From NCBI GenBank assembly GCA_017552715.1, contig JAFZOW010000099.1:1-37016 (forward strand): a DNA stretch of 37,016 bases, read 5' to 3'. Below are positions 2,339 to 27,329 of the stretch, in pieces (positions within the stretch are counted from its first letter, which is position 1; each line of letters starts with the position of its first letter). Source of the DNA: Lachnospiraceae bacterium (GTDB taxonomy: Bacteria; Bacillota; Clostridia; Lachnospirales; Lachnospiraceae). The position numbers and the translations under genes were made by a program. Below the pieces are notes generated by a model. That model was not told the DNA's origin and did no database searches. It was given only the letters and a program-made list of their open reading frames with translations.

Positions 2339-2339
2339 C

Positions 2340-8619: not shown

Positions 8620-8790
8620 ATGTATCACATTGTGAATTCCCTGTACCGCCGAGATCCCAGGTGCGGTACATCCAAGCCGGCATTTCGCCGCTGATTCACT
8701 GAACAAAGCATAAAGCGCGGTCTGAAAGGCTGTGAATTCTGTCTTGTGATCACTCCTTTTATTCCGCCACCACTCGAAAGGAGAATGCTT
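8620..8790 (+). other. Long 5' leader of the Rpn gene with a small hairpin
   Basis: No gene is seen between the promoter and the start codon. The leader holds an inverted repeat GTACCGC (8643-8649) / GCGGTAC (8663-8669) with a 13-base loop, and the word TGTGAATTC occurs twice (near 8631 and 8730). No known riboswitch or T-box is recognised. The Shine-Dalgarno AGGAG lies at 8779-8783. The whole gap between the two start codons (8452-8790, 339 bases) contains only these divergent promoters and this leader. Confidence 0.4.
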
Positions 8791-9665: not shown

Positions 9666-9708
9666 AAAAAAGGAACCGCATCCTGCGACACGGTTCCTTT
9701 CTTTTTAC
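9666..9708. terminator. Bidirectional intrinsic terminator
   Basis: A 10-bp stem (AAAGGAACCG at 9669-9678 pairing with CGGTTCCTTT at 9691-9700) encloses a 12-base loop. It is flanked by A's on the left and CTTTTT on the right, so it can stop both the plus-strand Rpn gene and the minus-strand solute-binding-protein gene that converge here. Confidence 0.85.
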
Positions 9709-9751: not shown

Positions 9752-11287
9752 TTAGTTTCCGTTAGCAGCGTCAACCTTAGCCTGCCAGCTCTCAACGATA
9801 GCGTCAACAGCCTCGGAAACCTTAGCTTCACCGTTGATACCCCAGATCAGATCGGGACCGGTCTGCAGGTCGGGGATCATGCCGGCATAAGAAACCATAC
9901 CGTGAGCGGTCTCACTCATCATAGGCAGGGTCTCATCCAGAGCTCTCTGGTCAAAGATACCGGAACGGGCGCGGGATACGATGCTGTTCTCCTCCTCGAT
10001 CTCGGGGGGAACTTCGAACCATACATCATATGCGAAAGCAATGTTCCAGGCCTTCTCGGCATCATAGCAGCCGGGGATCAGAGCAGGGTTGTTGCTCCAA
10101 CGATTCAGGTTGGTCTTTGCATTCGGGCCGTAAGGCATCATTACGAAGCCGGCGTCAAAGCTGATGTCAGCCAGGAAGTTACCGGGAGTACCGGCATACT
10201 CCTGCTCAAGCAGGAAGCAGGCATCACCGTTCTTCCAGGAATCCTTGTAGTAATCCCAAGGAGCATCCTGCATGGTGCCGTCTTCACCCTGTACCTGAGG
10301 ATCCTTATGACGATATTCCTTGATCATCTTGTTAGCGAACTCAAGAGCATCAAGGGTAGGCTGCTCGTTAACCTTCAGAACATACTTGCCGGAACCGTCC
10401 TTACCTACCATCTCAGCGTTGTTGGAGTAGATGAAGGCTTCAACAGCACCACCGGTGTTAGCAGTCCAGCCTGCTACATCAGCAATACCATCGTTATCGT
10501 TATCCTTCTGTACATCCTTACAGATGGCTTCGAAAGCATCCCAGGTCCACTTGCCGTCCTTCTGCAGATCATAGATCTCGTCAGCGGTATGGCCGCCGTC
10601 TTCCAGAAGCTTCTTGTTGAAGTATACACCGTCACGAGGCTCAGCAATGCTGCCGTAGAAAGCGTAAACGCCGCCATTGTAGCTGTACTGCTCGTTCAGT
10701 CTGTTCTGGGTGTACTTGTGATCGTTGAAATCAAGGCAATCCAGAGTGGACAGATCATACATCTGACCGTTACGCATTGCTGCGGTCATTTCGTTACAGT
10801 CACGAACGGTGAAGACATAAGCCTTGTCATCACCACCGGTGGTAACGTAATCTACGAACTGCTGAGGAGCATTGCCCCAGTCGCAGTTATCTACGATACC
10901 CTGGCTGAGCTTGAAGTTGTACTTCTCCATAGCCCACTCACGATACTCGCGGATCTCTGCCTCGTAGCTGCTCAGAGTGTCAGGATCAGCCTGCATGATA
11001 TCGGTCTCGTCGGTGGAGAACCAGTCACGGATGACGATCTCCATGCCGCCCAGGTCGATGGCGCTGCCATCGGGCTTGGTACGTACGGTGTAAGGCTCAA
11101 CCTCTTCATCCGTACCGGGATCGGTGGTACCGGGATCCGTGGTGCCGGGATCCGTGGTGCCGGGATCCGTGGTGGTTCCAGGATCGGTCGTACCGGGAGT
11201 CGGCTGCGCATCGCCGCCGCTCGAGCAGGCTGCCATGTTAAAGGCCATCACAGCAGCGAGAGCAACAGGTACAAATTTCCTTTTCAT
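9752..11287 (-). CDS. Carbohydrate ABC importer solute-binding lipoprotein
   Basis: This 511-residue extracellular binding protein (family 1, MalE/LplA-like) begins with a lipoprotein signal peptide ending NMAAC (Cys21). A flexible linker built from DPGTT repeats (about residues 30-60) follows, then a bilobal binding domain. Typical features are GVYFNKKLLEDGG, the segment KDGKWTWDAFEAICKDV, a calcium-site-like DNDNDGIADVAGW stretch, and CFLLEQEYAGTPGNF in the second half. It lies downstream of two permease genes, reversed from the usual binding-protein-first order, and has its own promoter. It most likely delivers an oligosaccharide to the permeases encoded at 11427-13329. The exact ligand cannot be read from the sequence; the enzyme neighbours suggest a uronic-acid-bearing xylan fragment. 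Confidence 0.92.
   Translation of the reverse strand: MKRKFVPVALAAVMAFNMAACSSGGDAQPTPGTTDPGTTTDPGTTDPGTTDPGTTDPGTDEEVEPYTVRTKPDGSAIDLGGMEIVIRDWFSTDETDIMQADPDTLSSYEAEIREYREWAMEKYNFKLSQGIVDNCDWGNAPQQFVDYVTTGGDDKAYVFTVRDCNEMTAAMRNGQMYDLSTLDCLDFNDHKYTQNRLNEQYSYNGGVYAFYGSIAEPRDGVYFNKKLLEDGGHTADEIYDLQKDGKWTWDAFEAICKDVQKDNDNDGIADVAGWTANTGGAVEAFIYSNNAEMVGKDGSGKYVLKVNEQPTLDALEFANKMIKEYRHKDPQVQGEDGTMQDAPWDYYKDSWKNGDACFLLEQEYAGTPGNFLADISFDAGFVMMPYGPNAKTNLNRWSNNPALIPGCYDAEKAWNIAFAYDVWFEVPPEIEEENSIVSRARSGIFDQRALDETLPMMSETAHGMVSYAGMIPDLQTGPDLIWGINGEAKVSEAVDAIVESWQAKVDAANGN
11111..11188. repeat. 15-bp tandem repeat encoding DPGTT linker
   Basis: Near-identical 15-base units (GGTGCCGGGATCCGT and variants at 11111, 11126, 11141 and 11156, then an 18-base unit at 11171) encode the repeated Asp-Pro-Gly-Thr-Thr spacer between the lipid anchor and the binding domain. 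Such exact repeats are prone to copy-number change. Confidence 0.85.
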
Positions 11288-11360: not shown

Positions 11361-11389
11361 ATAATATCGCAAGTCTGAACAAAAATCAA
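11361..11389 (-). promoter_or_regulatory. Promoter of the solute-binding lipoprotein gene
   Basis: On the minus strand TTGATT (11389-11384) and TATTAT (11366-11361) are spaced by exactly 17 bases. The transcript would start near 11354, about 67 bases before the ATG. A GGAGGG ribosome binding site precedes the ATG at 11287. This promoter would allow the binding protein to be made in excess over the permeases, as is usual for such systems. Confidence 0.65.
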
Positions 11390-11426: not shown

Positions 11427-12425
11427 TTACATCTTGATACCACTGGATGCGATACTCTCCACAAATTTCCTCTGTGCGAAGAGATAAAGGACGATCAGCG
11501 GCCCTACCACCATCAGGGTACCGGTGGACAGGATACAGTTGGAATAGGCTATGGAAACCGCCACCTTCTCACCTGTCAGACGCTGGATATACACACCCAG
11601 GGAATCCACCACCGTGGATATACTGGTGCTTACCAGTCGCTTGCCGCCCAGGAACATGGATGCGTAGAAACCGTCCGTCCACTGCCACACAAAGGAGAAA
11701 AGGAAGCAGGAGGTGATGATGGGCGTAGCTTCCGGAAGCATGATCTTCACAAAGGTCTTGAACATGCCGCAGCCGTCCACATAGGCTGCTTCTTCCATAT
11801 CCATGGGGATATTCCGGAAGAACTGGCGGATCATGTAGATATACAGACCATCCTTCAGACCCATGCAGCCGAAACACATCATATAATAAGGAATGATGGA
11901 TCCGCGAAGGTTCAGCGGCTCTCCCCTGATCAGCTTGAAGATACCGAAGATATCAAAGAAACGGAAGCGCAGGAAAAGCGAAGTGGAGATAACCTGCGGC
12001 GGGATAACGATGATCAGCATAACGAATGCAAACCACAGCTTCTTCAGAGGGAAACGGAAACGTGCAAAACCGTAACCCACCAGAGTACACATGGCGATCT
12101 GAATGATGGATGTGGTAAGGGAGATCACAAGGGAGTTGATGAAACTCGTCTTGTAGGTCATAACATCCGCTGCGATCTCGTAATTCTTCAGCGTAAAGTG
12201 CAGGGGGATGGAGATAACCACCGGATCAAAAAGATCCTCCTCCGTCATCAGACTGACCGAGATCTTGTTCAGTATGGGCTGAAGGATCAGGAAGCACAGA
12301 CCGAAGAGCAGAATGAACCTGCAGATGCTCACTGCGATGGCAGTAGCCTTTTTACGCAGCAGGTATCCTCCGGACTTTCGGTTCCGATCCCAGAAGGTGT
12401 CTTTTTGGATATCAACATTAATCAC
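11427..12425 (-). CDS. Carbohydrate ABC importer permease (MalG/YtcP type)
   Basis: The 332-residue integral membrane protein has six predicted TM helices and the inner-membrane-component EAA loop at about 210-231 (EEAAYVDGCGMFKTFVKIMLPEA), which docks the ATPase. It starts with GTG at 12425 behind AAGGGGG at 9 bases spacing, overlapping the upstream permease gene by 8 bases. It is about 50 residues longer than usual MalG-type permeases, with extra residues around 155-190 before the EAA loop. It pairs with the permease at 12418-13329. No ATPase is encoded in the cluster, so a shared MsmX-type ATPase is expected. Confidence 0.93.
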   Translation of the reverse strand: MINVDIQKDTFWDRNRKSGGYLLRKKATAIAVSICRFILLFGLCFLILQPILNKISVSLMTEEDLFDPVVISIPLHFTLKNYEIAADVMTYKTSFINSLVISLTTSIIQIAMCTLVGYGFARFRFPLKKLWFAFVMLIIVIPPQVISTSLFLRFRFFDIFGIFKLIRGEPLNLRGSIIPYYMMCFGCMGLKDGLYIYMIRQFFRNIPMDMEEAAYVDGCGMFKTFVKIMLPEATPIITSCFLFSFVWQWTDGFYASMFLGGKRLVSTSISTVVDSLGVYIQRLTGEKVAVSIAYSNCILSTGTLMVVGPLIVLYLFAQRKFVESIASSGIKM

Positions 12426-13329
12426 TGTAATATACCCCCTTAGAAATCCCTAACGAAGTGATGCCGACAAAGGCGATGACCACCACAAAGTAGACCCAGG
12501 TCATGGCCGAAGCGGTACCGTAGTCCTGCTTCGCCACCATGGTGGTGCTGATCTTGTCGATGACCTGATTATCCGAACGCATGCAGAAGTCTACCACGGT
12601 GTACACCCAGTTCACAAGGAAGAGGGAGCTGATCATGGGGAAGGTTACCTTCCAGAGACTTTCCCATGCGGTACAGCCTTCGATCTGGGCTGCCTCATAC
12701 ATACTGGCAGGTATGGTCTGCAGACCGGAAAGGAAGATGATGATCTGGATACCGCTGGCCATAGCCACGTCATAAATGTTATTGATAACTTCGAAGACCT
12801 TTTCAAAGGCTCTGGTACCTACGCCGGTAGTTCTCAGTATAGTCTGCAGGCCGGCGGTGATGCTGATACCCGAGGTGGTGGTCTCCACAGTCTGCTGCAG
12901 CTGAGCGATCAGCTGGTTATTGGATTCCAGACCCAGCATAACACCGGAGGAAAGGATGACCGGCAGGAAGAAGACCGCACGCACCAGTGCACGGCCCTGG
13001 AATTTCTGGTTCAGCACCAGGGAAACGAAGAAACTGAACACGATGATGGCGAAGGAATAGACCACCATTCGCAGCAGCTCCTCGGTGAGCAGACGGACAT
13101 ATTCCGGATCCACACGGAAAGCGTAGATATAATTGTTATATCCGCACCAGTGAAGGTTGAAGATACCGGCTCCCAGCTCTACCGTGGTAAAACTCATATA
13201 GAGAGACTGCAGGAAGGGCCTCAGCATAAAGAGCAGGAAACCCAGTATGAACGGAAGGATGAACAGATAACCTGCTCTGGCCTTTCGTTTCTCCAGTCCT
13301 ACCAGTCTTTTTTTCTTTTTCTTTTCCAT
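12418..13329 (-). CDS. Carbohydrate ABC importer permease (MalF/LplB type)
   Basis: The 303-residue permease opens with a Lys-rich cytoplasmic end, then GYLFILPFILGFLLF as TM1. The EAA loop lies at about 211-231 (YEAAQIEGCTAWESLWKVTFP). The stretch from about 135 to 190, between the third and fourth membrane helices, is enlarged (ESNNQLIAQLQQTVETTTSG and on) compared with ordinary MalF-type subunits lacking a P2 domain. The ATG at 13329 is preferred over a TTG two codons upstream because AGAGAGG lies 8-9 bases before it. It forms the heterodimeric channel with the next gene's product. Ligand specificity is inferred only from neighbours. Confidence 0.92.
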   Translation of the reverse strand: MEKKKKKRLVGLEKRKARAGYLFILPFILGFLLFMLRPFLQSLYMSFTTVELGAGIFNLHWCGYNNYIYAFRVDPEYVRLLTEELLRMVVYSFAIIVFSFFVSLVLNQKFQGRALVRAVFFLPVILSSGVMLGLESNNQLIAQLQQTVETTTSGISITAGLQTILRTTGVGTRAFEKVFEVINNIYDVAMASGIQIIIFLSGLQTIPASMYEAAQIEGCTAWESLWKVTFPMISSLFLVNWVYTVVDFCMRSDNQVIDKISTTMVAKQDYGTASAMTWVYFVVVIAFVGITSLGISKGVYYSD

Positions 13330-13365
13330 GTTCAAAGCCTCTCTTTATCCGTAAATACTGTGAGC

Positions 13366-16014
13366 TCAGCGTACGACCACATAATCCCTGGTGGGAACTT
13401 CCGTGCCGTCTTCCGCCGTATAATCTTCGGTAAAGCTGTAATTCACATATACCTTGGTTCCGTCCGCGAAGGTGGTGCAGCGTACATAATCCGTCAGCAC
13501 TTCATGATCGCTCATCTCCTGCTTGAAGCAGTGTCCCAGTTCATCATTGTAGCGGGTGCACATATCGATCAGGCGGGTACGCCATGCGGCATATTCGCAG
13601 CCGTAATACTCGGAATACAGGGTCTTCTGCAGAACGAAGGAGCTCTCGCTCATCAGGGTAAAGTACAGACCTGCACCGTATTCGGCACTGCGCAGCAGCT
13701 CTTCCTGGTCATCGCCGCAGATATTGATGGGATTACCGGTGTAATCGATATATCCGTGGATGGCGATCTGGTAGAAAGGAACATTGTGATCGATGATAGT
13801 ATATTCGCTTCCCTTCAGATCCATATTGGTGATCATGTCCACGTAAGGTACGGCATAATCGTTACCCATGTTGATCATGACCTTCTTGTCATCCATTGAC
13901 TTTAAGAGCTCTGTATTTTTATTTTTCACATCCTCACGGCTGTGCATTTCCTTACGATAGAAATCGGAGGACAGATCCATACCGATATCCTGGAAGGATA
14001 CGCCGGTACCGTAGCTTCCCGCAGCCGCCACCAGGTTGTTGGCCATCTCCATGGCCAGACCGGTATGCAGCAGATAATAGCTCTTGAAGCCTTCGCGGGC
14101 TGCGTAGGTCACGTGACTGTAATTGAAGAGCTCCGCACGCTCCTTGGTCAGCAGTCTGGCAGCATCCCGATAAGAGATGAAGCCGTTAAAGATATTACTG
14201 CGGTGCTCGTACTGGGTGATACCGTCAAGGTAAAGATCCACACCCAGATTGGAAGCCGTGGTGGCCAGATTCTTCAGATCGTTCTTGGAACCCAGCTGCC
14301 AGATGGGATTGACACTGGTCAGGATCTTCTGATCCACACCGCCGTTGCACCAGCCCGTATATTTTACGGAAAGCTTACCGATGGGCAGTGAATTCAGGTC
14401 TTTGATGATATCCTCAGCATCCTTGAACTTCGTCAGCTTCAAAGGCAGGGATACGGGAACACCCAGCACCTGCTGCACCTTATCCACAGCGCCGACGAGC
14501 TCCACGGCTACGGGGGCCTGCTCATCTTCGTTCAGAGTCATATAATCGCCGTAGTTACTCTCCAGATAATCCCTGTAGGCATAGGCCATATCCACATAAT
14601 CCGTGGAATCCAGGAAACGGTAGCGCTGTACGATCTTCTCATCCCTGGGGATATTGGTCTGATACGAGTATACAGCGGAACTGGACATATTCGCGATCTC
14701 GAACTCTTCCTTCGGGCAGAGGGTATATTCCGCGTCTACATAGTTGTAATCATTCAGCTTCCCGCCGATGAAGGCCTTGACGGCTGCATAGGAAGTACCG
14801 TCTTCCATGATGCAGAGGAAGGAGCCGTCCCCGCAGGAGTGACCGTAAGTGTTGAAATAAGCACGGGTGTTATGTATCACATATCTGCGGCGCTGGCACA
14901 TATCCCAGCCGTAGACATTGGCATAATAGTTGTTCTGTGCGACCTTGCCGTTGTTGTATTCGATGATGCCGCCGCCGCCTTCGGGCACCAGCATAAAGCC
15001 TTCATCCTCTTTGCCGCCGGCTCCGAAATAAGGAAGCGGGGTCAGGAGGGTGATAGGCGCGCTGGGATCGAACTCCAGCTTATCAAAGGGAACTTCCACA
15101 ACCAGATCATCCCCTTCCAGACGAAGGTCCATCTCCACATTGAACAGCTGGTTTTCTTCATCGGATTCGGACTCATCCAGAGCCTTATCCGCTTCGTACT
15201 CTTCATAGGTGTAGCCCGCCTCTTCCATGGCGGCTTCGATCACCTGCTTACGGTCTTCTCTGGCATTGGCCTTCAGCACATACACCGGCTCGGTAGCCAG
15301 GATGGGATACTGGGCAAGCAGGGCTTCCTTGTCGTCACCCTTCTTGAGCTTGTTGATATCGTACTTTTTGTACATATCCTTGACCAGGGAAGCCTTGTTC
15401 TTTTCCATCTTATCACGCAGGGCATCCATCTCAGCCACACGCTTCACCTTGGGGATGATGTACTCACGCTCCACCTTACCCAGAGTATATTTTAAGTTGA
15501 TGCCGTTCTCCACCTGCTCGATCTCATAGATGGAATTATCCACGCTGTAGGCTTTGGTATCGTAAATGGTCTCCAGACCGCTCTTGATACCGAAGGTCAG
15601 CAGCAGATTGGACTGCATGCGGCTCTTTTCATCGGAAAGGGCACGGCTGTCACTGTCCGCATCTTTGATATAGGAAGACCACTCTTTACCGGTGGACTTC
15701 TTGGTCACGGTAAAGTAAGTGGTAGCCGGATCCATGGTAAGGATGAGTTCGTCATTCTCCACCACGATGGGGGTCTCCGGATCCCCTTCAAATCCATAAG
15801 GTATGATCTTCACCGTTTCATCCTGGGGATTGACAAATTTGATTATGGCAAATACACCCAGTCCTATCAGAGCCAGGAAGCAGACCGGGAAGATCAGGCT
15901 TTTCAGGAAATCTCGGATCGCATTATTGCGCTCCACATTTCCTTCACCCCTTACTCTTCTGACCTTGGGCGCTTTTATCGGTTTTTCCTTTTTTTCCTTC
16001 TTTTCCTTACTCAT
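13366..16014 (-). CDS. DUF5696-like large membrane-anchored protein with probable glycosidase-like barrel
   Basis: The 882-residue protein has a basic N-terminus, a single TM anchor at about 41-61, and a large extracellular part. Residues 85-190 and 290-480 look like a beta-sandwich, interrupted by a charged helical insertion (about 190-290). Residues 500-840 contain spaced strand motifs such as KYTGWCNGG (551), GVDLYLDGIT (591), GVSFQDIGMDLSSD (671) and VMINMGNDYAVPYVD (712), a pattern expected of a TIM barrel. The end (TKVYVNYS, about 853-860) is strand-like. I recognise it as DUF5696-type, a family that recurs beside sugar importers. A glycosidase fold related to GH101/GH129 is an inference from the sandwich-barrel-sandwich order and the Asp-rich strand ends, and no catalytic pair is proven. 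It lies between YIP1 and a permease pair in one operon, with AGGAG before the ATG. Confidence 0.75.
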   Translation of the reverse strand: MSKEKKEKKEKPIKAPKVRRVRGEGNVERNNAIRDFLKSLIFPVCFLALIGLGVFAIIKFVNPQDETVKIIPYGFEGDPETPIVVENDELILTMDPATTYFTVTKKSTGKEWSSYIKDADSDSRALSDEKSRMQSNLLLTFGIKSGLETIYDTKAYSVDNSIYEIEQVENGINLKYTLGKVEREYIIPKVKRVAEMDALRDKMEKNKASLVKDMYKKYDINKLKKGDDKEALLAQYPILATEPVYVLKANAREDRKQVIEAAMEEAGYTYEEYEADKALDESESDEENQLFNVEMDLRLEGDDLVVEVPFDKLEFDPSAPITLLTPLPYFGAGGKEDEGFMLVPEGGGGIIEYNNGKVAQNNYYANVYGWDMCQRRRYVIHNTRAYFNTYGHSCGDGSFLCIMEDGTSYAAVKAFIGGKLNDYNYVDAEYTLCPKEEFEIANMSSSAVYSYQTNIPRDEKIVQRYRFLDSTDYVDMAYAYRDYLESNYGDYMTLNEDEQAPVAVELVGAVDKVQQVLGVPVSLPLKLTKFKDAEDIIKDLNSLPIGKLSVKYTGWCNGGVDQKILTSVNPIWQLGSKNDLKNLATTASNLGVDLYLDGITQYEHRSNIFNGFISYRDAARLLTKERAELFNYSHVTYAAREGFKSYYLLHTGLAMEMANNLVAAAGSYGTGVSFQDIGMDLSSDFYRKEMHSREDVKNKNTELLKSMDDKKVMINMGNDYAVPYVDMITNMDLKGSEYTIIDHNVPFYQIAIHGYIDYTGNPINICGDDQEELLRSAEYGAGLYFTLMSESSFVLQKTLYSEYYGCEYAAWRTRLIDMCTRYNDELGHCFKQEMSDHEVLTDYVRCTTFADGTKVYVNYSFTEDYTAEDGTEVPTRDYVVVR

Positions 16015-16065
16015 GGCAACTCCTGTTATCTGTTAGTATGCTTTTGCAGCCGCTGATATATCCTT

Positions 16066-16755
16066 TTACATTCGGTACATCAGCTCTCGGCCGATGGAGA
16101 TAAAGTAAGATACACCCTGTGTGACCATACTGAAGAAGATCATCAGCAGGAAGATCATGACCAGCACCGCTGCGACGGATGCTATGGTAAAGAGCAGGGT
16201 CTTGGCTGCCGAATAGGCGTGTACCTGACCCATGCCGCATATGATCAGTATCAGACACCAGACAAGCGAAAGTACACTCAATACCGAGTAGAACTGTCCT
16301 TCCTGTATGGTAACAAAGTTACTTACGATCATCAGAGGGATCTGGATCAGCGGATAAGGGAGCATGCCGTAGCAGGTTCCTATATATACGTCGCCCAGAC
16401 GTCCTTTACCGTCGAAGAGCGTGGTCAGCGCCCAGTTACCCACCACCCAGAGGGACAGGGGGAAGATGATACTGGCGATGTAGAGGAAGATGTTGATATC
16501 CTCCCAATATACCTGGAGGAACAGGAAGCTGGTATATTTCAGCTTGATGATACGGGTAAAGATCGCAAGGATCAGGATCGTATTTGCCGCAGCAAGGCTG
16601 CCCCTGTGTTCATGGGTCAGTTTCCAGAAACCGTCCAGGGGATGGGAAATACAATAGAAGCCGAATTTCAGCGTCTCCTTGTAGCGGGCGAGGTTTGCCG
16701 CACGCCTTTCCCTTCTGTCCTCTTTACTCTCTTTTTTTCTGTAAGCTCTGCTCAT
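16066..16755 (-). CDS. YIP1-family integral membrane protein
   Basis: The 229-residue protein has a charged N-terminal 30 residues (many Lys, Arg and Glu), then five predicted TM helices. The segment GFYCISHPLDGFWKLTHEHRGSL leads into TM1; LWVVGNWALTTLFDGKGRLGDVYIGTCYGMLPYPL is the family hallmark between TM2 and TM3. YIP1 proteins in bacteria have no settled function. The gene sits 12 bases after the NHL/TPR gene and 51 bases before the DUF5696-like gene in the same operon, suggesting that the three act as a membrane assembly with the importers. Confidence 0.82.
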   Translation of the reverse strand: MSRAYRKKESKEDRRERRAANLARYKETLKFGFYCISHPLDGFWKLTHEHRGSLAAANTILILAIFTRIIKLKYTSFLFLQVYWEDINIFLYIASIIFPLSLWVVGNWALTTLFDGKGRLGDVYIGTCYGMLPYPLIQIPLMIVSNFVTIQEGQFYSVLSVLSLVWCLILIICGMGQVHAYSAAKTLLFTIASVAAVLVMIFLLMIFFSMVTQGVSYFISIGRELMYRM

Positions 16756-16767
16756 AAAGGTCCACCT

Positions 16768-18294
16768 TTACTTTTTCATCAGTTTGAATATATCCGCGTT
16801 GTCGATCTCTTCTTTGATCTGGTAGACCCGGCCGATGCTCATGGGTACCAGGAAGATGGCAAGGATGATCACGATGATACCGATGATATTCTCTCGTATC
16901 CACTGCTTACGGTACTGAGCAAAGGCACGGGAGTAGTTCTCGTCATCGTACTTGGCTTCGAAATACTTCATGGACTCTTTATACTGGCCCTTCCGGTACA
17001 TGGAACGTCCGATACCGATATATGCCAGAGCATAGTTACCGTTAAGAGTCTTTACTTCCTCCCAGGTAGCCTGGGCATCATCATACTCACCGTTATCAAA
17101 CTGCTCCATGGCCTGATAGATCAGAGAGCCGTAATGGGTGGGAATGAACAGGGTGATGGTGCAATCCAGCTGATCCAGCACCAGTAGGTCATTGCCCATA
17201 TGCTCGATGGAAACGGGATTACGGAAATATCCGGCCTGGTTTCCGTTACCGCCGAAGGCGTATACCATGCGTCCCTGATCGTCATAACCGAAAAGACGTC
17301 CGCGCTTCTGATCCAGACAGATATAGATATCGTTATCCAATACCGTTACATCCTTGAAATAGGAAGGTCCGGAGATACCGCCGCCGCCGCCCCAGTACAG
17401 GTCGCCGAATACGGGATAATCACCGTTACGTACCAGGATATCGGTACCCATCATGTTCAGCTTACGCACCGCATCCACGGTCTCGTTCTTCAGATCCTCT
17501 TCCTTCAGGCCGCCGGAAACCGCATAGATAAATCCTTCTCTGTCCATATAGACGTTATCATATTCCGTAGGAACGAAGGATACCATCTGTTCACGCTGTG
17601 CCTGGGAGGCAAGGCGCTTCCAGATGTAATCCATAAAGTTATAGGAAACTCGTGTAGCTCCCACAAAGCCGGAGAATACACCGTCGGATTCGAACTTAAG
17701 GAGACCCTTGTTGATACCGGAAGCCTCGCAGTAGATACGGCCCGCCGTATCACAGACGATCTTGTCGGGCTTGAAGCCTGTGCCTGCATCGAGAGCGGAA
17801 TCATCGGGCCGGGTGAACTGCATCAGATAGTTCAGGTCCGGATCCGTCTTGATCACACGGTTATTATCACGGTCGGCAATGAAGAGATTTCCATCTTCAT
17901 CCACAGCGATATCCGCAGGAGCTGCAAAGGTCTCGGGATCGGCTCCCTTGACGGACTTGATCTCATCCACGAATTCCAGCTGGTCGGAACCCTTACGTTC
18001 AAACAGCAGGATACGGTTATTACCGGTATCGCAGAGATATACCTTATCGCCGTCCACAAACAAGGATTCGGGATTGTTTAAATTGGAGGAAAGACCCAGG
18101 GCGCCGAAGTCGAACACACGGGCAACGGTATAGGCATCCGGAGACTCCTGCACATCCTCCCAATAGTCATACACATAGGTATAATTGTCTTCGCCGGCAT
18201 AGGCTTTCCCGAAACAGGAAATAACAAAACCGGAAAGCAGTGCAGCCGAAAGCAGTCTGCGCATGATCTTCAGTTTGTTCACTCTCTTCTTCAT
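16768..18294 (-). CDS. Membrane-anchored NHL beta-propeller protein with TPR motif
   Basis: The 508-residue product has an N-terminal signal or anchor sequence (about 10-33, LLSAALLSGFVISCFGKAYA). A run of NHL repeats follows from about 58 to 385; clear units read NPESLFVDGDKVYLCDTGNN, APADIAVDEDGNLFIADRDN and NPVSIEHMGNDLLVLDQ. A TPR-like helical pair lies at about 392-455 (FDNGEYDDAQATWEEV, MYRKGQYKESMKYFE). A C-terminal TM helix spans about 467-488, followed by a short cytoplasmic tail. The propeller and TPR would therefore be outside the cell, held at the membrane. Propellers and TPRs usually bind protein or carbohydrate partners. The gene has a good AAGGAG site and follows the permease gene by 10 bases. 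No enzymatic motif is visible. Confidence 0.8.
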   Translation of the reverse strand: MKKRVNKLKIMRRLLSAALLSGFVISCFGKAYAGEDNYTYVYDYWEDVQESPDAYTVARVFDFGALGLSSNLNNPESLFVDGDKVYLCDTGNNRILLFERKGSDQLEFVDEIKSVKGADPETFAAPADIAVDEDGNLFIADRDNNRVIKTDPDLNYLMQFTRPDDSALDAGTGFKPDKIVCDTAGRIYCEASGINKGLLKFESDGVFSGFVGATRVSYNFMDYIWKRLASQAQREQMVSFVPTEYDNVYMDREGFIYAVSGGLKEEDLKNETVDAVRKLNMMGTDILVRNGDYPVFGDLYWGGGGGISGPSYFKDVTVLDNDIYICLDQKRGRLFGYDDQGRMVYAFGGNGNQAGYFRNPVSIEHMGNDLLVLDQLDCTITLFIPTHYGSLIYQAMEQFDNGEYDDAQATWEEVKTLNGNYALAYIGIGRSMYRKGQYKESMKYFEAKYDDENYSRAFAQYRKQWIRENIIGIIVIILAIFLVPMSIGRVYQIKEEIDNADIFKLMKK

Positions 18295-18304
18295 CGGCAG
18301 CTCC

Positions 18305-19213
18305 TTAATCTTTCAGACCCGAGCTTGCCATGGTCTCGAGGATCTGGCTCTCGGAGAATACGAAGGTAAGTATGGGTACGATCATGACCACGATCAGCAC
18401 CGCGGCACCCTGACCGGTACGGGCGATACCGCCGGCCTGCACCTGGCTCAGTGCGAAGACCAGCATCTTTCTTTCCTCGGAATAGATGAAGGTTGATGCA
18501 CGGTTATTCCAAAGGCCCTGCACCGAGAAGATGATCAGCGTCATCCACGCGGGCTTAACGTTGGGCATAACGATCTTGGAGAATACCATCCACTCGTTGG
18601 CGCCGTCGATCTTGGCCGCCTCGATGAGGGAGGTAGGCAGACCTTCCATAAACTGCTTCATAAGGAAGAGTCCGATAGGAGATGCAAAAGCGGGAACCAC
18701 GATGGCCCAGTAGGTATCAACCCAGCCCAGCTTGTTGATGATGATATAGTTGGGGATCTGGGTAACGTAACCGGTAAACATCATAGCCACGGTAACGATC
18801 TTGAAGAAACCCTGCCCGCCGGGGAAATCGTATTTCGCCAGCACGAAGGCACCCATGGATGCGATCATCAGGTGACCCGCCGTACCTACCACGGTGATGA
18901 ACACCGTATTAAAGAGGTAACGGGAGAAGGTGACCCAGCTCTTACCCATGGTAACAAAGAGGTCAGAGAAGTTGTTCAGTGTAGGTCTCCGCGCAAAGAT
19001 CCTGGGCGGGAACATGAACAGCTCGTCCAACGGCTTCAGGGCTGCGTTCACGGCGTACACGATAGGGAACACCATGATGGCCGCCACGATCAGCAGGAAG
19101 ATATACAAAGCGATATCTCCGTGGATGGAGCGGTTGGGCTTCCTCCTTTTGATGAGAGGCTTGTGATAAGCCTGCTCCTTGATTTCTTTCATTTTTTTGA
19201 CTTTTTTACTCAT
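18305..19213 (-). CDS. Carbohydrate ABC importer permease (MalG type)
   Basis: The 302-residue permease has a basic cytoplasmic start, six TM helices, and the EAA loop at about 197-219 (LIEAAKIDGANEWMVFSKIVMPN). The TM2-TM3 region (NTVFITVVGTAGHLMIASMGAFVLAKYDFPG) is typical of the MalG/UgpE branch. It begins 3 bases after the stop of the partner permease gene, with AGTAGGA as ribosome binding site. With that partner it forms the channel for the large CBM-like binding protein encoded at the head of the operon. An external MsmX-like ATPase is needed. Confidence 0.94.
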   Translation of the reverse strand: MSKKVKKMKEIKEQAYHKPLIKRRKPNRSIHGDIALYIFLLIVAAIMVFPIVYAVNAALKPLDELFMFPPRIFARRPTLNNFSDLFVTMGKSWVTFSRYLFNTVFITVVGTAGHLMIASMGAFVLAKYDFPGGQGFFKIVTVAMMFTGYVTQIPNYIIINKLGWVDTYWAIVVPAFASPIGLFLMKQFMEGLPTSLIEAAKIDGANEWMVFSKIVMPNVKPAWMTLIIFSVQGLWNNRASTFIYSEERKMLVFALSQVQAGGIARTGQGAAVLIVVMIVPILTFVFSESQILETMASSGLKD

Positions 19214-19216
19214 GCT

Positions 19217-20233
19217 TTAGGTTCCTACTCTTCTAAGTAAACTCTGAATTGCCTTGTTGCAAAGGATCATCATCAGGAAAAGTATGGTTGCGATAGCGCA
19301 GGCGTAACCCATTTCAAAACGCTGTGAACCATAGTCGATCAGGTGGGCCACAATGGTACGCGCCGCGTAATCCGTACTGGGGAAGCCGCAGAGCTGCATG
19401 GTAACGTCGGCCACACCGAAGGAGGTGGTGATGGTCATAACCGCACCGAACATCAGCATGGGCTTCATGTTCGGGAGGGTGATGTACCACAGCTCCTGCC
19501 AGCGGTTCTTGATACCGTCCATGTAACCTGCTTCGAACTGGGAAGAATCCACACCCTGGAGACCTGCCACGAAGGAAAGGAATCCGGTACCGAGACTCAT
19601 CCACAGGATAACGATCATACAGATCGGAAGCATGTATCTGGGATCCGTGAACCAGTAAATGGGGTTATCGATGATACCCAGGTTCATCAGAGCCGCGTTC
19701 ACATATCCGTAAGCATCACCGCGGAAGAACACGGAGAAGATGACGTAACAGTTACCTGCGATGGAAGGAGCATAGAAGACTACCACCGCAACGCTTCGCA
19801 CCCAGCGTGGCAGCTCGTTGATCAGCCAGGCGAAAAGGAAGCTCATGATATAGCCCAGGGGCCCGGTGATCAATGCGATGATCAGGGTGTTCTTCACACC
19901 GATCAGGAAGATATCATCTTCCAGCAGCAGGCTGATGTAGTTGTTCAGCCCGATGAAACGGGGAGGCTCCAGCACGTTATAGTACGTGAAGCTGAAGAAG
20001 ATGGATGCGACCACCGGGAACACAAAGAACACGGTGAACAGGATCGCATAGGGTGCCAGGAAAAGATAGCATCCCTTGCTGATCTTCATCTTCTTCCAGG
20101 CCGTAGAGAGATTATGCTTCCGGAGGGTTATATACTTCTGAAAATAGGTATCCCCCGGAGAAGCCATGGCTCCCCTGGCTTTTTTCCCCTTTTTGTCTTC
20201 TTCGATGTTGATCTTGATCTTAGGATCCGCCAT
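19217..20233 (-). CDS. Carbohydrate ABC importer permease (MalF type)
   Basis: This 338-residue permease carries an unusually long, basic, cytoplasmic N-terminus of about 55 residues before TM1 (GCYLFLAPYAILFTVFFVFP). The EAA loop lies at about 233-254 (FEAGYMDGIKNRWQELWYITLP). It follows the binding-protein gene by 12 bases and precedes the second permease by 3 bases, the classic SBP-MalF-MalG order. The AGAGG site before the ATG at 20233 fits. It is not closely similar to the other MalF-type permease at 12418-13329, so the operon carries two distinct importers rather than a fresh duplication. Confidence 0.94.
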   Translation of the reverse strand: MADPKIKINIEEDKKGKKARGAMASPGDTYFQKYITLRKHNLSTAWKKMKISKGCYLFLAPYAILFTVFFVFPVVASIFFSFTYYNVLEPPRFIGLNNYISLLLEDDIFLIGVKNTLIIALITGPLGYIMSFLFAWLINELPRWVRSVAVVVFYAPSIAGNCYVIFSVFFRGDAYGYVNAALMNLGIIDNPIYWFTDPRYMLPICMIVILWMSLGTGFLSFVAGLQGVDSSQFEAGYMDGIKNRWQELWYITLPNMKPMLMFGAVMTITTSFGVADVTMQLCGFPSTDYAARTIVAHLIDYGSQRFEMGYACAIATILFLMMILCNKAIQSLLRRVGT

Positions 20234-20245
20234 TTTATGTACCTC

Positions 20246-23194
20246 TTAATCGATTTCGATACTCATACCGAACTCTTTACGTTTCTTGATGATCTCCTCA
20301 TCGATCTTGATGGAATAATCGATGATGGTCTCTCGCGTATCATCCTTGTCGTTGATGCACTTACGTACCGCATTGGCCAGGTGACGGCCGGTGAAGTAAC
20401 CGCCGGGAACCTCGCGGATACCCACGGTCTGGTCCCACTGGGCCGCCAGCACTTCCACATCGTCCATACTCCAGGACAGTCTGGAGAAGGAATCGCGGTT
20501 AGCGGTATTGTAACGGGCGGAAGCACCCAGCAGAGCTTCGATCTCGCGGCCGAAGCGTACCTGCGTGTCCACGCCTGCCCACCACTTCATGAATTCCCAG
20601 GAATTCTGCTTGCACTGCTCGTCATCGTTGGCCAGCATCATGGTGGCGTTACCGGTGATGAAGCAGCTGCGGTCGATATAGGTATTACCGTCCTCGTCCA
20701 CCTTCTCCGTGCCCGGGATCAGAGTGAAGTCCCAGAGGCCGCGGATCTCGGGTGCGGATACCATCAGAGTATTATAGGTCGAATACGGTGCGATACCGAT
20801 GGGCATCTCGCCGGAACGGAATCGGCTCACGAAGTCGAAGTAGACGGGGATGCCGTAATCGTTGAAGTAGCGTACGTAATCATCAAAGGCTGCGATACCG
20901 GCCTCGGTGTTAACGGTGGTCTTGGTGCCGGCTGCGTTGTACATGTCACCGCCGTACTGGAAGAGCAGGGTGAAGTACAGGGACAGATCCGGCTGGTTGG
21001 AAGCAATGGTGGTACTTGCCGCCGCGCTGGAAGAGGAACCGCCCGCACTGGGGATACCGATGGAGAGGTTGTTACCCTGAATGGTGGGCAGCATCTCGAT
21101 GACTTCCTTCCAGGTGTTGGGGATCTCCAGCTCCAGCTCCTCCAGGATGTCCTTACGATAGAACATAACGTTGAAGGTCTGCTGCTCGGGCACGGCATAG
21201 ATATGGCCGTCCAGGCTGTACTGTTCATAGGAGCTGGCGGAATAGTGGCTCAGCACCTCTTTGTAATCCGGGAACTGGGTGATATCCTCTGCAGCTTTAC
21301 GCAGAGCATAGTTGACTGGCTGGTCGGCACCGACGGAAAGCACCACATCGGGTCCGCGCCCGGCCGTAACCGCGTTCAGCAGGGCATCCGGTGCAACGAT
21401 CTCCACGTTCACCTTAACCCCCGAGTTGGGAGTAAATTCATCATCGATCATGGACTTAAGGATGGTACCCTGGTCACGACCGGTGAGCACCCATACGGTG
21501 ATGGCGTCGTTGGCATCGCTGCCGGAGTACACATCACCCACGGAGTTGTAGTCCACCACGAAGGATGCGGCGAAGGAACGGATCTCATGCCATGCAGCCT
21601 TGAAGAAGTTGCTCTTCACGATCTGGGGCTGAGTACCCGTGCCGGTGACTACCAGATAGTCGATATCCAGCTTGGTCTCGCTCATGTTCAGAGCAGCGGT
21701 ACCGAGAGCCGTGATGTTATCTTTGAAAGCGGTGAATTCCAGCGTGATCTTCTGGGGCTTTTTCACGAAACGCTCCAGCTGCTGGGCCATGGTCTGAGCC
21801 GTGGCGATATTGTCGGCCTTCTGGCCGCTGAATTCCACCAGATCATCCACCAGCTTGTAAAGGCGCTTGGATTCCAGATCCATGGCTTCGATGATCTCGG
21901 GATAGGTCTTGTCGATATTGTAATCGCGGTACTGATCGGGTGTTGCACCGGTATACACCAGAATGCGGCGGTATACCTGATTCAGACGATAGGTGGAGCT
22001 TTCCAGATCGGAAAGCAGCTCACCCAGACGGCCCAGTGTAGCCTCCAGACGGATGGTATGCTTACCGGCGGTCAGATAGATATTGTAATCGTTACCGGAA
22101 GCATCCGCAAGACGCTTGCACTCCCAGTCATTATCATAGGAATAGGAAATGCTCCGGAGCTCTTCGAAAGGAAGCTCGCCGTCGATGAGTACCGTACGGC
22201 TGGAAACATTACCGCGGGCGTAGTTCTGACGGCCCTTGATCATGAAGTTGTAATAGCCGTCGGCGGGAACTTCGAATTCCCATTCCACCCACATGCCGTT
22301 GCTGCGCCATGCTTCGCCGCCCACATAGTTGAGCACCGTGGTGGTCACACTGGAAGGAGACGTGGTGGGTGAGGAACGGTCATATTTTGCATACAGGGAA
22401 CTCTCGGAACGGACCGTGGAGCTTTCGCCCTCTATGGTCAGATAGAAATCCTGGCCGCCGGAAGCGGGAGGGCAGGATGCGGTGTAATCGGCATAGCTTA
22501 CTGCATCGCGGACTCCGCGCACTTCCAGTTTGCGGATAGCCAGAGGCTCGTTCTCCGCATCCAGAGTGATGGTATTCTTACCCTTTTCAAAATAGAAAAG
22601 ATAGGGCTCGTCAACGTAACCCATATCATCTTCGAAATATGCATTCTGCCAGTCAAAGACTTCTACCTGGGTGGGACGGATCTCGTTGCCCTGGTTATCG
22701 ATCTTTACCAGGCCGCCATCCTTCCAGATACGGGTGAACTCTACACTGGTGGCATCTTCAAAAGGCAGCTCCCCGTTGATGAGGACCTTACGTTCGGCCG
22801 CCACACCGCGGGATTCCGCTGCAAGATATTCCATATAAAGATTATAAAAACCGGCTTCGGGAACATTCACCTCCCAGGTGACTACAGAGCCGGTATCGGT
22901 AAACAGGGCCTTTTCCTCACCCTCGTAATCCTGTTCCACCGTAACGTTTCCTTCGGAGGTGTACTGGTAGATATCCACCTCGGTATCAGCGGAAGGAGTA
23001 GCCGCGCCCTCATGGCTGCGGATATACTTATCATAGGTACCGATGCGCTCTGCACCCGCTACCTCCCTGGTAAGATCCGCTCCTTCGTATTTATCATGGA
23101 AATCCAGCACTTTTCTGTGGGAAAGAGCAAAGAGCAGACCTCCCAGTGCCAGCAATACAAGAACAACAATGATCCAGGTATTTTTTTTCTTCAT
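20246..23194 (-). CDS. Membrane-anchored solute-binding protein with two N-terminal carbohydrate-binding-like beta-sandwich domains
   Basis: From the ATG at 23194 (GAAGGAAGG just upstream) the product has 982 residues; an alternative start at 23251 is disfavoured. A single N-terminal TM helix (about 6-24) replaces the usual lipobox. Two related domains follow: about 75-228 and 250-415. Both contain a VPxxGxYN strand (111-118 and 309-316) and a V-L-I-N/D-G-E-L-P-F-E segment (137-146 and 335-344), showing an internal duplication; they resemble CBM6/35-like sandwiches. A helical region (about 420-555) leads into a family 1 binding domain (about 565-980) with GRGPDVVLSVGADQPVNYALR, LDGHIYAVPEQQTFNVMFYRK and FMKWWAGVDTQVRFGREIEALLG. 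Ordinary binding proteins have 400-550 residues. It is the first gene of the transport operon and probably captures a long or branched oligosaccharide. Confidence 0.88.
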   Translation of the reverse strand: MKKKNTWIIVVLVLLALGGLLFALSHRKVLDFHDKYEGADLTREVAGAERIGTYDKYIRSHEGAATPSADTEVDIYQYTSEGNVTVEQDYEGEEKALFTDTGSVVTWEVNVPEAGFYNLYMEYLAAESRGVAAERKVLINGELPFEDATSVEFTRIWKDGGLVKIDNQGNEIRPTQVEVFDWQNAYFEDDMGYVDEPYLFYFEKGKNTITLDAENEPLAIRKLEVRGVRDAVSYADYTASCPPASGGQDFYLTIEGESSTVRSESSLYAKYDRSSPTTSPSSVTTTVLNYVGGEAWRSNGMWVEWEFEVPADGYYNFMIKGRQNYARGNVSSRTVLIDGELPFEELRSISYSYDNDWECKRLADASGNDYNIYLTAGKHTIRLEATLGRLGELLSDLESSTYRLNQVYRRILVYTGATPDQYRDYNIDKTYPEIIEAMDLESKRLYKLVDDLVEFSGQKADNIATAQTMAQQLERFVKKPQKITLEFTAFKDNITALGTAALNMSETKLDIDYLVVTGTGTQPQIVKSNFFKAAWHEIRSFAASFVVDYNSVGDVYSGSDANDAITVWVLTGRDQGTILKSMIDDEFTPNSGVKVNVEIVAPDALLNAVTAGRGPDVVLSVGADQPVNYALRKAAEDITQFPDYKEVLSHYSASSYEQYSLDGHIYAVPEQQTFNVMFYRKDILEELELEIPNTWKEVIEMLPTIQGNNLSIGIPSAGGSSSSAAASTTIASNQPDLSLYFTLLFQYGGDMYNAAGTKTTVNTEAGIAAFDDYVRYFNDYGIPVYFDFVSRFRSGEMPIGIAPYSTYNTLMVSAPEIRGLWDFTLIPGTEKVDEDGNTYIDRSCFITGNATMMLANDDEQCKQNSWEFMKWWAGVDTQVRFGREIEALLGASARYNTANRDSFSRLSWSMDDVEVLAAQWDQTVGIREVPGGYFTGRHLANAVRKCINDKDDTRETIIDYSIKIDEEIIKKRKEFGMSIEID

Positions 23195-23240: not shown

Positions 23241-23256
23241 AAACACGCCATTAAAA

Positions 23257-23284
23257 ATTATACCAAACCAACGGGAAAAAGCAA
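23257..23284 (-). promoter_or_regulatory. Promoter of the transport operon (extended -10)
   Basis: On the minus strand a perfect TATAAT (23262-23257) is preceded by TGG, giving an extended -10 (TGGTATAAT). A weak TTGCTT -35 lies 16 bases upstream (23284-23279). Transcription would begin near 23250 and read the binding protein, permeases, NHL, YIP1, DUF5696-like and second permease pair. No intrinsic terminator is seen between uxuA and this promoter, so read-through from the enzyme block is possible. Confidence 0.7.
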
Positions 23285-23331: not shown

Positions 23332-24396
23332 TTATCCCTTTTGTTTGTCCAGCATGTCCCAGGCCCCTAAAATATACATGATACCCAGGGCCCTGTCGTA
23401 AAGTCCGTAGCCCGGACGGCACTGCTCGTTCCAGATATGACGGCCGTGGTCGGGACGGATATAGCCGTCGAAGCCGGCGTCGTGATAGGCCCTGATGATA
23501 TCCAGGATCCCCACATCACCGTCGCAGTCACGATGGGAGACTTCACTGAAATCGCCGTTTTCGTAGATCTTTACATTACGGATATGGGCAAAGGCGATAC
23601 GATCGGCATATTTACGCACGATGTCCGCCACATTGTTGGCGGGATTGGAGCCCAGAGAACCGGAACACAGGGTCAGGCAGTTATAAGGATCGTCCACCAG
23701 CTTTAAGAAGCGGCCGACACTCTCCTCATCCACCAGAAGCCTCGGAAGCCCGAAGATATCCCAGGGGGGATCATCCGGGTGGATGGCCATTTTGATGCCG
23801 CATTCGTGGCAGACAGGCATGAGCTTTTCCAGGAAGTAGCGCAGGTTCTCCCAAAGCGTCTCCTTATCCACACTCTTATATTTCTCAAAAAGTTCCGTAA
23901 GCTTTGCCAGACGCTCCGGTTCCCAGCCCGGCATGGTAAAGCCTTCGCATTCCTTCAGGATATACTCTGCCATCTCCTGCGGATCCTGTTTGATCTTGGA
24001 CTTTTCATAGAAGAGGGCCGTGGAGCCGTCCCCCAGGGGATGAAACAGATCCGTACGGGTCCAGTCAAAGACGGGCATGAAATTGTAGCAGATCACCTTC
24101 ACGCCGAATTCCTTCAGGTTCCGTATGGTCTGAATATAATTGTCGATATAAAGATCCCTGTCCGGGCCGGCGGTCTTGATGTCGTCGTGGACATTCACTG
24201 ATTCCACCACGCTCATGCCGAAGCCGTAGGGTTTCAGCTCTTCCGCCACCTTGGCAATCTCTTCGGGCTGCCATACTTCGCCGGGCAGCTTGTCGTGCAG
24301 GGCCCAGACGATCTCCTCCACTCCGGGGATCTGCCGGATCTGCGACAGGCTCACCGTATCATTGCCGCTGCCGTACCAGCGAAAACTCATCTTCAT
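23332..24396 (-). CDS. uxuA: Mannonate dehydratase
   Basis: The 354-residue enzyme converts D-mannonate to 2-keto-3-deoxy-D-gluconate in the glucuronate (Ashwell) pathway, in the cytoplasm. The N-terminus MSFRWYGSGNDTVSL and the segment CYNFMPVFDWTRTDL are hallmarks of the UxuA family, as is the closing RPDHGRHIW. Residues expected to bind the catalytic metal are present: His206 (MAIHPDDPPW), Cys244 (LCSGSLGSN), His271 (FAHIRNV) and Asp316 (RPDHG). The length is normal. The gene starts 6 bases after the GH115 stop codon, with GGAGG 9 bases before the ATG, so the enzyme that frees glucuronic acid and this enzyme of its breakdown are co-translated. The partners uxaC, uxuB and kdgK are not in the window. 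Confidence 0.96.
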   Translation of the reverse strand: MKMSFRWYGSGNDTVSLSQIRQIPGVEEIVWALHDKLPGEVWQPEEIAKVAEELKPYGFGMSVVESVNVHDDIKTAGPDRDLYIDNYIQTIRNLKEFGVKVICYNFMPVFDWTRTDLFHPLGDGSTALFYEKSKIKQDPQEMAEYILKECEGFTMPGWEPERLAKLTELFEKYKSVDKETLWENLRYFLEKLMPVCHECGIKMAIHPDDPPWDIFGLPRLLVDEESVGRFLKLVDDPYNCLTLCSGSLGSNPANNVADIVRKYADRIAFAHIRNVKIYENGDFSEVSHRDCDGDVGILDIIRAYHDAGFDGYIRPDHGRHIWNEQCRPGYGLYDRALGIMYILGAWDMLDKQKG

Positions 24397-24402
24397 CTTT
24401 CT

Positions 24403-27234: not shown

Positions 27235-27242
27235 GCTCACTA

Positions 27243-27247
27243 CCTCC
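27243..27247 (-). promoter_or_regulatory. Ribosome binding site that fixes the GH115 start
   Basis: GGAGG on the minus strand is 8 bases from the ATG at 27234 but only 2 bases from the GTG at 27240, so translation should begin at the ATG. Confidence 0.7.
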
Positions 27248-27269
27248 GCAGGATATGCACACTTTGTCT

Positions 27270-27298
27270 ATAATATCACAATCGAAACCGTGCCACAA
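27270..27298 (-). promoter_or_regulatory. Candidate internal promoter for GH115-uxuA with overlapping imperfect inverted repeat
   Basis: On the minus strand TTGTGG (27298-27293) and TATTAT (27275-27270) are separated by 17 bases, with a TGA extension before the -10. An imperfect inverted repeat, GGCACA and TGTGGC around a central AAGCTT (27292-27312), overlaps the -35 box and could be an operator. The gap between GH2 and GH115 (27235-27329) is the widest in the enzyme block, which fits a promoter. Confidence 0.55.
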
Positions 27299-27329
27299 GC
27301 TTGATCTGTGCCAAAAAAGTTGCTCTCTG

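Follow-up and report, generated by a model that had tools for sequence, protein, structure and literature searches.

A conserved nine-gene cluster of Lachnospiraceae and other bacteria combines two ABC permease pairs with NHL-TPR, YIP1, and DUF5696 membrane proteins

A 37,016-nucleotide stretch of DNA from a Lachnospiraceae bacterium (GCA_017552715.1, contig JAFZOW010000099.1), here called the window, contains nine co-directional minus-strand genes. In order, they encode the binding protein SBP1, permeases 1 and 2, an NHL-TPR protein, a YIP1 protein, a DUF5696 protein, permeases 3 and 4, and a second binding protein, SBP2. Because of its co-occurrence by genome and its synteny, this arrangement is a conserved system, beyond chance. 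The reading that we favor, with some confidence, is that the nine genes would encode one oligosaccharide-uptake system composed of two co-travelling modules: module A (SBP1 and permeases 1/2) and module B (NHL-TPR, YIP1, DUF5696, permeases 3/4, and usually SBP2). The first three proteins of module B, termed the trio, would be its dedicated extra subunits. Co-presence by genome, conserved gene order, repeated NHL-TPR/YIP1 fusion, and the separability of modules A and B were observed.

Co-occurrence and gene order across genomes

Two sets of genomes were searched, one of 200 genomes from the same family as the source (Lachnospiraceae) and one of 398 genomes sampled phylum-wide; the two overlap slightly, G000 and G194 at least being in both. 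Presence was scored at ≥300 bits for DUF5696, a floor set in this analysis, at an E value of 1e-10 (family set) or 1e-7 (phylum set) for YIP1 (profile A4), and at 1e-60 for SBP1 (profile A11). The phylum set was searched for DUF5696 and YIP1, and the SBP1 and NHL-TPR (profile A5) profiles were run on the family set only. DUF5696, YIP1, and SBP1 were present in the identical 41 of 200 family genomes, and DUF5696 and YIP1 occupied the identical 40 of 398 phylum genomes. NHL-TPR was found in the same 41 family genomes and in G074, the last by a weak generic match (46 bits over an 83-residue stretch). The curated DUF5696 cutoff was exceeded in 57 family genomes, the other 16 of which (26 to 173 bits) were not among the YIP1 genomes; two further phylum genomes (G481 and G503) narrowly exceeded it.

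Gene order was then read in 160 loci: 60 from the family set, 20 from the phylum set, and 80 named loci, the best 80 of at least 576 relatives, chiefly from Lachnospiraceae metagenome-assembled genomes (MAGs) and isolates and also from other Clostridia, Christensenella, and Treponema. Loci were located via DUF5696, YIP1, or SBP1, so a pair resembling permeases 3/4 without the trio would escape notice. Room for the whole set was defined as at least 7.9 kb upstream and at least 2.1 kb downstream of DUF5696, which excluded 39 of the 160 loci. All eight core genes (SBP1 through permease 4) were present in 118 of the 121 loci with room (46/47 family, 56/56 named, and 16/18 phylum loci); the incomplete ones were L065, L205, and L217. 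The component profiles were trained on sequences drawn from the family and named loci (60 and 80, respectively), and completeness there is thus partly circular; the 20 phylum loci lay outside the training set.

Family and named loci nearly all shared one gene order, the exceptions being L068 and L072, in which SBP2 precedes SBP1, and L079, in which permease 2 is displaced. Four further loci (L210, L211, L214, and L219) were rearranged without loss, permease 4 of L211 being displaced yet present. Module B carried NHL-TPR, YIP1, and DUF5696 in the loci read, themselves located via these genes, barring contig ends and L065, and the trio shared its locus with permeases 3/4 barring contig ends, L065, and L217. 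A preliminary description of this DNA had expected the trio to co-occur with sugar permeases across genomes, as it does, and had held that free drift of the trio from the permeases would count against a common function. Such drift was looked for and, with the exceptions just given, not seen in the loci read. Inter-component distances correlated at 0.74 to 0.94 across 43 loci (a figure with no outside control), as expected of co-inherited genes.

Fusion of the NHL-TPR and YIP1 genes was seen in the family set (21 of 60 loci) and the phylum set (8 of 20) and never among the 80 named loci. All 10 fused proteins tested with Pfam matched both NHL and Yip1, Yip1 falling under the curated cutoff in 2 of them. 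A YIP1 tree of 95 domains (29 fused; midpoint rooted, taking in 14 of the 80 named loci, with several changes resting on single sequences) requires seven changes of fusion state, and fusion or fission was thus probably repeated. As judged from these sequences, NHL-TPR and YIP1 behave as a single two-part membrane protein. Fusion supports one predicted subunit contact only, that of NHL-TPR with YIP1. Searched against the PDB at an E value of 1, the YIP1 profile gave no match.

Carriers of the system belong to the Lachnospiraceae, other Clostridia, Treponema, and further families of the phylum. The Treponema carriers, which are outer-membrane bacteria, were MAGs (L149, L159, L160, L165, L167, L168, and L171). 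One locus (L233) comes from the 243-kb Butyrivibrio fibrisolvens plasmid pNP243, on which a two-component system and a GH43 gene accompany the whole operon; its PLSDB annotation names the same genes piecemeal. Plasmid searches returned this single operon copy and one other DUF5696 match, on a Paenibacillus cellulosilyticus plasmid, and no relative of the window DUF5696 turned up in a scan of viral_contigs. In L204, several SBP2-like open reading frames (ORFs), some possibly fragments, stand in a row after permease 4.

Two separable modules and their proposed roles

Modules A and B part in some genomes. The first 60 kb of G258 contig 7, read whole, contained two B sets (L205 and L230) and neither SBP1 nor permeases 1/2. 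Module B without an adjoining module A was found in L205, L230, L237, L239, L243, and L245. No module A was present in the DNA read (0.8 to 12 kb per side) around L237 and L239 (G258), L243 and L245 (G352), and the second B set of L246 (G326); low-scoring partial SBP1 matches (18 to 30 bits) occurred in L237, L243, L246, and L248. SBP2 accompanied the separate B sets except in L230, where one sits 2.5 kb further. Three more loci (L236, L240, and L248) resemble separate B sets but have a contig end or unread DNA close by. Module A without an adjoining module B was found in L264, L268, L271, L274, and L277, one per genome in five genomes, each consisting of SBP1, permease 1, and permease 2 and free of B genes for ∼5 to 8 kb around. 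All four SBP1 places were read in each of G258, G352, and G326, four of six in G237, and one of three in G296; in each of the first three genomes, one place was separate and three were linked to a B set. Because some searches scored few candidates per genome, each copy number is a minimum. Where split genomes part A from B, the trio is found on the side of permeases 3/4, apart from permeases 1/2. The preliminary description had assigned it to one or both importers; the pairing with permeases 3/4 held, and separation from SBP1 and permeases 1/2 was seen in a few genomes.

Median identity to the window proteins in the named loci was 80% for permeases 1/2, 67% for SBP1 and permease 3, 65% for permease 4, 59% for YIP1, 54% for NHL-TPR, 50% for DUF5696, and 39% for SBP2. 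The wider set kept the same extremes, with SBP2 diverging fastest and permeases 1/2 slowest. A role for SBP1 as the glycan-specific part was considered and dropped, SBP2 diverging faster. The idea that the fused NHL-YIP1 clade has no SBP2 was also rejected, because permease 4 is followed there by a diverged binding protein (SBP_bac_1 matched in 4 of 6 tested). The best match of the SBP2 profile was an arabino-oligosaccharide-binding protein (E value of 8e-21), and 18 of 23 aligned SBP2 relatives matched SBP_bac_1. By simple patterns and hydropathy, a lipobox-like motif was present in 3/63, 6/53, and 2/18 SBP1 sequences of three sets and in 50/72, 34/39, and 6/17 SBP2 sequences, a majority in two sets; an N-terminal hydrophobic segment was present in 60/63, 40/53, and 15/18 SBP1 sequences.

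The Glu of the EAA loop was kept in permease 1 (137/137), permease 2 (142/142), permease 3 (154/154), and permease 4 (145/153, the remaining 8 having Asp or Asn). With this coupling loop conserved in every one of the four permeases, each pair is expected to couple to an ATPase. None of the nine cluster genes encodes an ATPase, and the single OB_MalK match in the genome lies on another contig (contig 54).

In the favored reading, module A would contribute SBP1, with its CBM-like region and membrane anchor, and permeases 1/2; module B would contribute the lipoprotein SBP2, permeases 3/4, NHL-TPR, YIP1, and membrane-tethered DUF5696. SBP2 would set glycan specificity, the propeller and DUF5696 would be seated on YIP1 as an extracytoplasmic glycan-holding platform, and a shared MalK/MsmX-type ATPase would drive both permease pairs. 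One module A may serve several B modules. In G258 and G352, separate B sets outnumber separate A sets, and this surplus suggests that module A is shared in trans. A further step, which we put forward tentatively, is that many interchangeable B modules, each specific to a glycan, use the NHL-TPR/YIP1/DUF5696 platform to dock with a constant hub importer (SBP1 and permeases 1/2). If that is true, the hub and module B would assemble into a heteromeric double importer, functionally the Gram-positive counterpart of SusCD and a new organization of ABC (ATP-binding cassette) import.

Several points weigh against the favored reading. Co-presence is no proof of contact between subunits. The window SBP2 had no Pfam match at an E value of 0.01 and was assigned via its relatives. 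Two loci depart from the set, with no NHL-TPR in 7.9 kb of L065 and no permease 4 in the DNA read of L217. In G352, separate A and separate B (L243) share a contig at a distance of ∼15 kb, 6 kb of it unread, and this split pair may be a single stretched locus. A separate B set also lies 12 to 20 kb from a linked one in G326 and G258. Such nearby linked sets, and the locating of loci via DUF5696, YIP1, or SBP1, make both this reading and the hub slightly less probable. Some B modules could function without module A, since a partner does not adjoin every copy.

An alternative is an arrangement in which two ordinary, independent CUT1 importers take up different products of one polysaccharide and the trio consists of co-regulated helpers. 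Each permease pair has its own coupling loops and its own binding protein, and A and B can be unlinked, as this arrangement would allow. Independent importers ought, however, sometimes to occur alone, and at the thresholds used no family genome had SBP1 without DUF5696 and YIP1 or the reverse. SBP1 was present in 41 of 41 family carriers, module A thus being separable yet present in the same genomes, and in 12 of 12 genomes picked as carriers of the system, split ones included. We therefore regard independent importers as rather unlikely.

DUF5696 and the GH129 glycosidases

DUF5696 resembles glycoside hydrolase (GH) family 129. Against the PDB, the only structures below an E value of 0.01 were of GH129 type, and another search added chance-level matches. 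DUF5696 was collinear with a GH129 3,6-anhydro-D-galactosidase (5opq; also 8rzg to 8rzk) over four stretches, two of them weak by themselves, with a whole-protein E value of 1e-14, and it matched GH129-like bridge proteins with 97% probability. Direct profile comparison with two GH129 proteins gave weak, local matches (7 and 23% probability), and the window protein had no match to Pfam GH129 at an E value of 1. Unlike the GH129 glycosidases, DUF5696 is membrane tethered, and its presumed catalytic pair is absent from most sequences.

Given this resemblance, DUF5696 might alternatively be an active glycosidase, tethered to the membrane and trimming oligosaccharides at the mouth of the importer. 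The GH129 catalytic pair, which we take to be an Asp nucleophile and a Glu acid/base, was placed on DUF5696 by sequence alignment to bridge proteins of unproven activity. An acid occupies the presumed nucleophile column (676) in 112 of 161 sequences, including the window protein (D676), as an active enzyme would require; the presumed acid/base column (715) has Glu in 25 of 161. Both residues occur together in 7 of 161 sequences, or in 16 of 161 if Glu at 715 or 716 is allowed, and the window protein has no such pair. Gly stands at the nucleophile column in 18 of the 29 loci with fused NHL-YIP1. D371 and E778, which are also conserved acids, could still act, and the columns were set from sequence alignment only. 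We judge an active glycosidase distinctly unlikely, and the trimming of oligosaccharides proposed in the preliminary description is disfavored. The most economical reading is that DUF5696 would be a membrane-tethered, probably non-hydrolytic, glycan-binding part; it is probably not an ordinary glycosidase. Separately, five loci (L223 to L227) hold GH129-like proteins of ∼620 to 730 residues, with weak matches to DUF5696 and GH129, that keep both presumed catalytic acids.

Some ABC-linked sensors report transporter occupancy, and a trio reporting occupancy to a regulator might be expected beside regulatory genes, such as the histidine kinase and response regulator that adjoin the operon on the B. 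fibrisolvens plasmid and the AraC-type (HTH_18, 3; HTH_AraC, 2) and response-regulator (2) domains among 66 flanking proteins, but a simple hydropathy scan gave NHL-TPR and DUF5696 one or two hydrophobic segments, and neither has a Pfam-recognized cytosolic output domain, which makes a sensor very unlikely.

Organization of the locus, its neighbors, and relation to known systems

The features of the window are listed in Table 1. The preliminary description had drawn eight co-directional genes with this order and spacing, and all eight lie on the minus strand, with gaps from SBP1 to permease 4 of 12, 3, 10, 12, 51, and 30 bases and an 8-base overlap at the last junction. It had omitted the ninth gene, SBP2, which follows permease 4 by 139 bases, outside its coordinates. 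ORF coordinates and Pfam bore out the placement of the trio between two permease pairs. Pfam identified SBP_bac_1 in SBP1, four BPD_transp_1 permeases (CUT1 type by Pfam and NCBIfam), NHL with subthreshold TPR matches, Yip1 (43 bits; cutoff, 28.6), and DUF5696 (610 bits). The SBP1 of the preliminary description was CBM-like; its binding-protein domain was confirmed, and its CBM_35 and CBM_6 matches stayed below the cutoffs.

Table 1. Cluster and neighboring features in the window
Feature	Position	Strand	Module or remark
SBP1, ∼982 aa, N-terminal hydrophobic anchor, CBM35/CBM6-like region, C-terminal SBP_bac_1	20246..23194	-	module A
Permease 1, EAA loop EAGYMDG	19217..20233	-	module A
Permease 2, EAA loop EAAKIDG	18305..19213	-	module A
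NHL propeller and TPR, C-terminal hydrophobic segment	16768..18294	-	module B
YIP1, polytopic membrane protein; fused to NHL-TPR in some relatives	16066..16755	-	module B
DUF5696, one hydrophobic anchor at the N terminus, distantly related to GH129, presumed catalytic pair incomplete	13366..16014	-	module B
Permease 3, EAA loop EAAQIEG	12418..13335	-	module B
Permease 4, EAA loop EAAYVDG	11427..12425	-	module B
SBP2 lipoprotein, oligosaccharide-type binding protein judged by relatives	9752..11287	-	module B
Extended -10 like TGGTATAAT ahead of SBP1	23257..23265	-	read directly; unlisted by generic promoter scan
Promoter-like site ahead of SBP2	11361..11389	-	consensus match; as many expected by chance
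Terminator-like hairpin after SBP2	9675..9689	-	consensus match only
UxuA, GH115, and GH2 genes, co-directional, upstream; likely enzymes of same locus	23332..30632	-	
GH43-CBM6	30660..32105	-	
HlyD	7285-8451	-	exporter-like set
HlyD-like, 719 aa	5129-7288	-	exporter-like set
FtsX, 933 aa	2340-5141	-	exporter-like set

The SBP1 start at 23194 is preferred because it has a GGAAGG ribosome site, whereas a longer SBP1 from the ATG at 23251 would begin only 5 bases past the extended -10 TGGTATAAT (23265-23257). The preliminary description had named this element as the single promoter. The sequence was seen directly. Because the generic scan omitted it and found fewer promoter-like sites (12) than shuffled sequences did (15.1), a promoter ahead of SBP1 is no more than plausible.

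Because GH115, UxuA, and GH43 genes lie upstream, the substrate in the source genome is probably a glucuronoxylan-derived oligosaccharide. Flanking enzyme sets varied by clade. They were tallied from hand-picked nearest larger ORFs, many of which matched nothing or unrelated genes. Fused-type family loci were flanked by GH43 (12), GH51-type (9), and GH31 (3) genes (57 of 82 listed proteins scanned) and other family loci by GH130 (9), GH3 (6), GH67 (2), and GH36 (2) genes (66 of 90). The counts were 9 GH43, 6 GH5, and 3 GH10 beside named loci (66 of 127, downstream ones only) and 3 GH3, 3 GH26, and 2 GH10 beside phylum loci (36 of 46). These enzymes fit uptake of arabinan, xylan, and mannan products. 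The hemicellulase neighbors and the oligosaccharide-type binding protein likewise fit the proposed receiving or handing over of large oligosaccharides. As a whole, the interpretation in the preliminary description is partly supported. No regulator was found among the part of the window ORFs that was scanned.

Directly downstream lies an exporter-like set (640-8451, minus strand) that includes two ABC ATPases; among the 80 named loci, 20 had homologues of its HlyD and 719-residue genes and 23 had homologues of FtsX. A PD-(D/E)XK transposase-family gene (8746-9624, plus strand) stands between SBP2 and this set. At the other end, two adjoining proteins with C-terminal phosphodiester glycosidase (NAGPA) domains are encoded at 33273-36781 (minus strand), and the one tested had no homologue at an E value of 1e-15 in the other loci. 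A 370-residue protein (32160-33272, minus strand) had no Pfam match and no homologue at the same E value in the 160 loci.

Like a CUT1 importer with a shared MsmK/MsmX ATPase, the cluster has a binding protein and two EAA-loop permeases, with a MalK-type ATPase domain encoded elsewhere; unlike it, the cluster has two permease pairs, two dissimilar binding proteins, and three further membrane proteins. To our knowledge, NHL-TPR, YIP1, and DUF5696-type membrane proteins are no part of the CUT1 scheme. The SusC/SusD pairs of Bacteroidota are a repeated, glycan-diversified transport unit that marks plant-fiber loci. The cluster is likewise repeated and glycan-diversified and marks such loci, but it uses ABC permeases and occurs mostly in Gram-positive bacteria (Treponema is the exception); none of the nine proteins had a SusC/SusD-type match in Pfam or NCBIfam.

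Gram-positive polysaccharide utilization loci (gpPULs) are defined, in the parts of PMC5320581 consulted, by an enzyme, a transporter, and a regulator, with ABC transporters listed in general terms. The cluster resembles gpPULs as described there in having a transporter adjoining glycoside hydrolases, with enzyme sets varying by locus, and differs in that a fixed nine-protein set recurs. Those parts of PMC5320581 do not mention NHL, YIP1, or DUF5696 proteins, no search there being aimed at NHL or YIP1. Term searches found no NHL or YIP1 in PMC8579813 and PMC4765114 and no NHL in PMC6344614 (where YIP1 was not searched). No paper in the PMC literature, whose coverage leaves out most subscription papers, names DUF5696, and no description of the gene set or its setting was found in the portions of that literature seen.

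An ABC oligosaccharide importer is a known kind of system; the constant extra subunits and the two-module organization would be new. Three uncharacterized families (DUF5696, a bacterial YIP1 subfamily, and an NHL-TPR subfamily) thereby gain a testable setting, glycan import. The recurring unit can mark plant-fiber loci in Lachnospiraceae, other Clostridia, Treponema, and further families of the phylum. If module A is a hub shared by several B modules, ABC import would be more modular than the scheme of one binding protein and two permeases.

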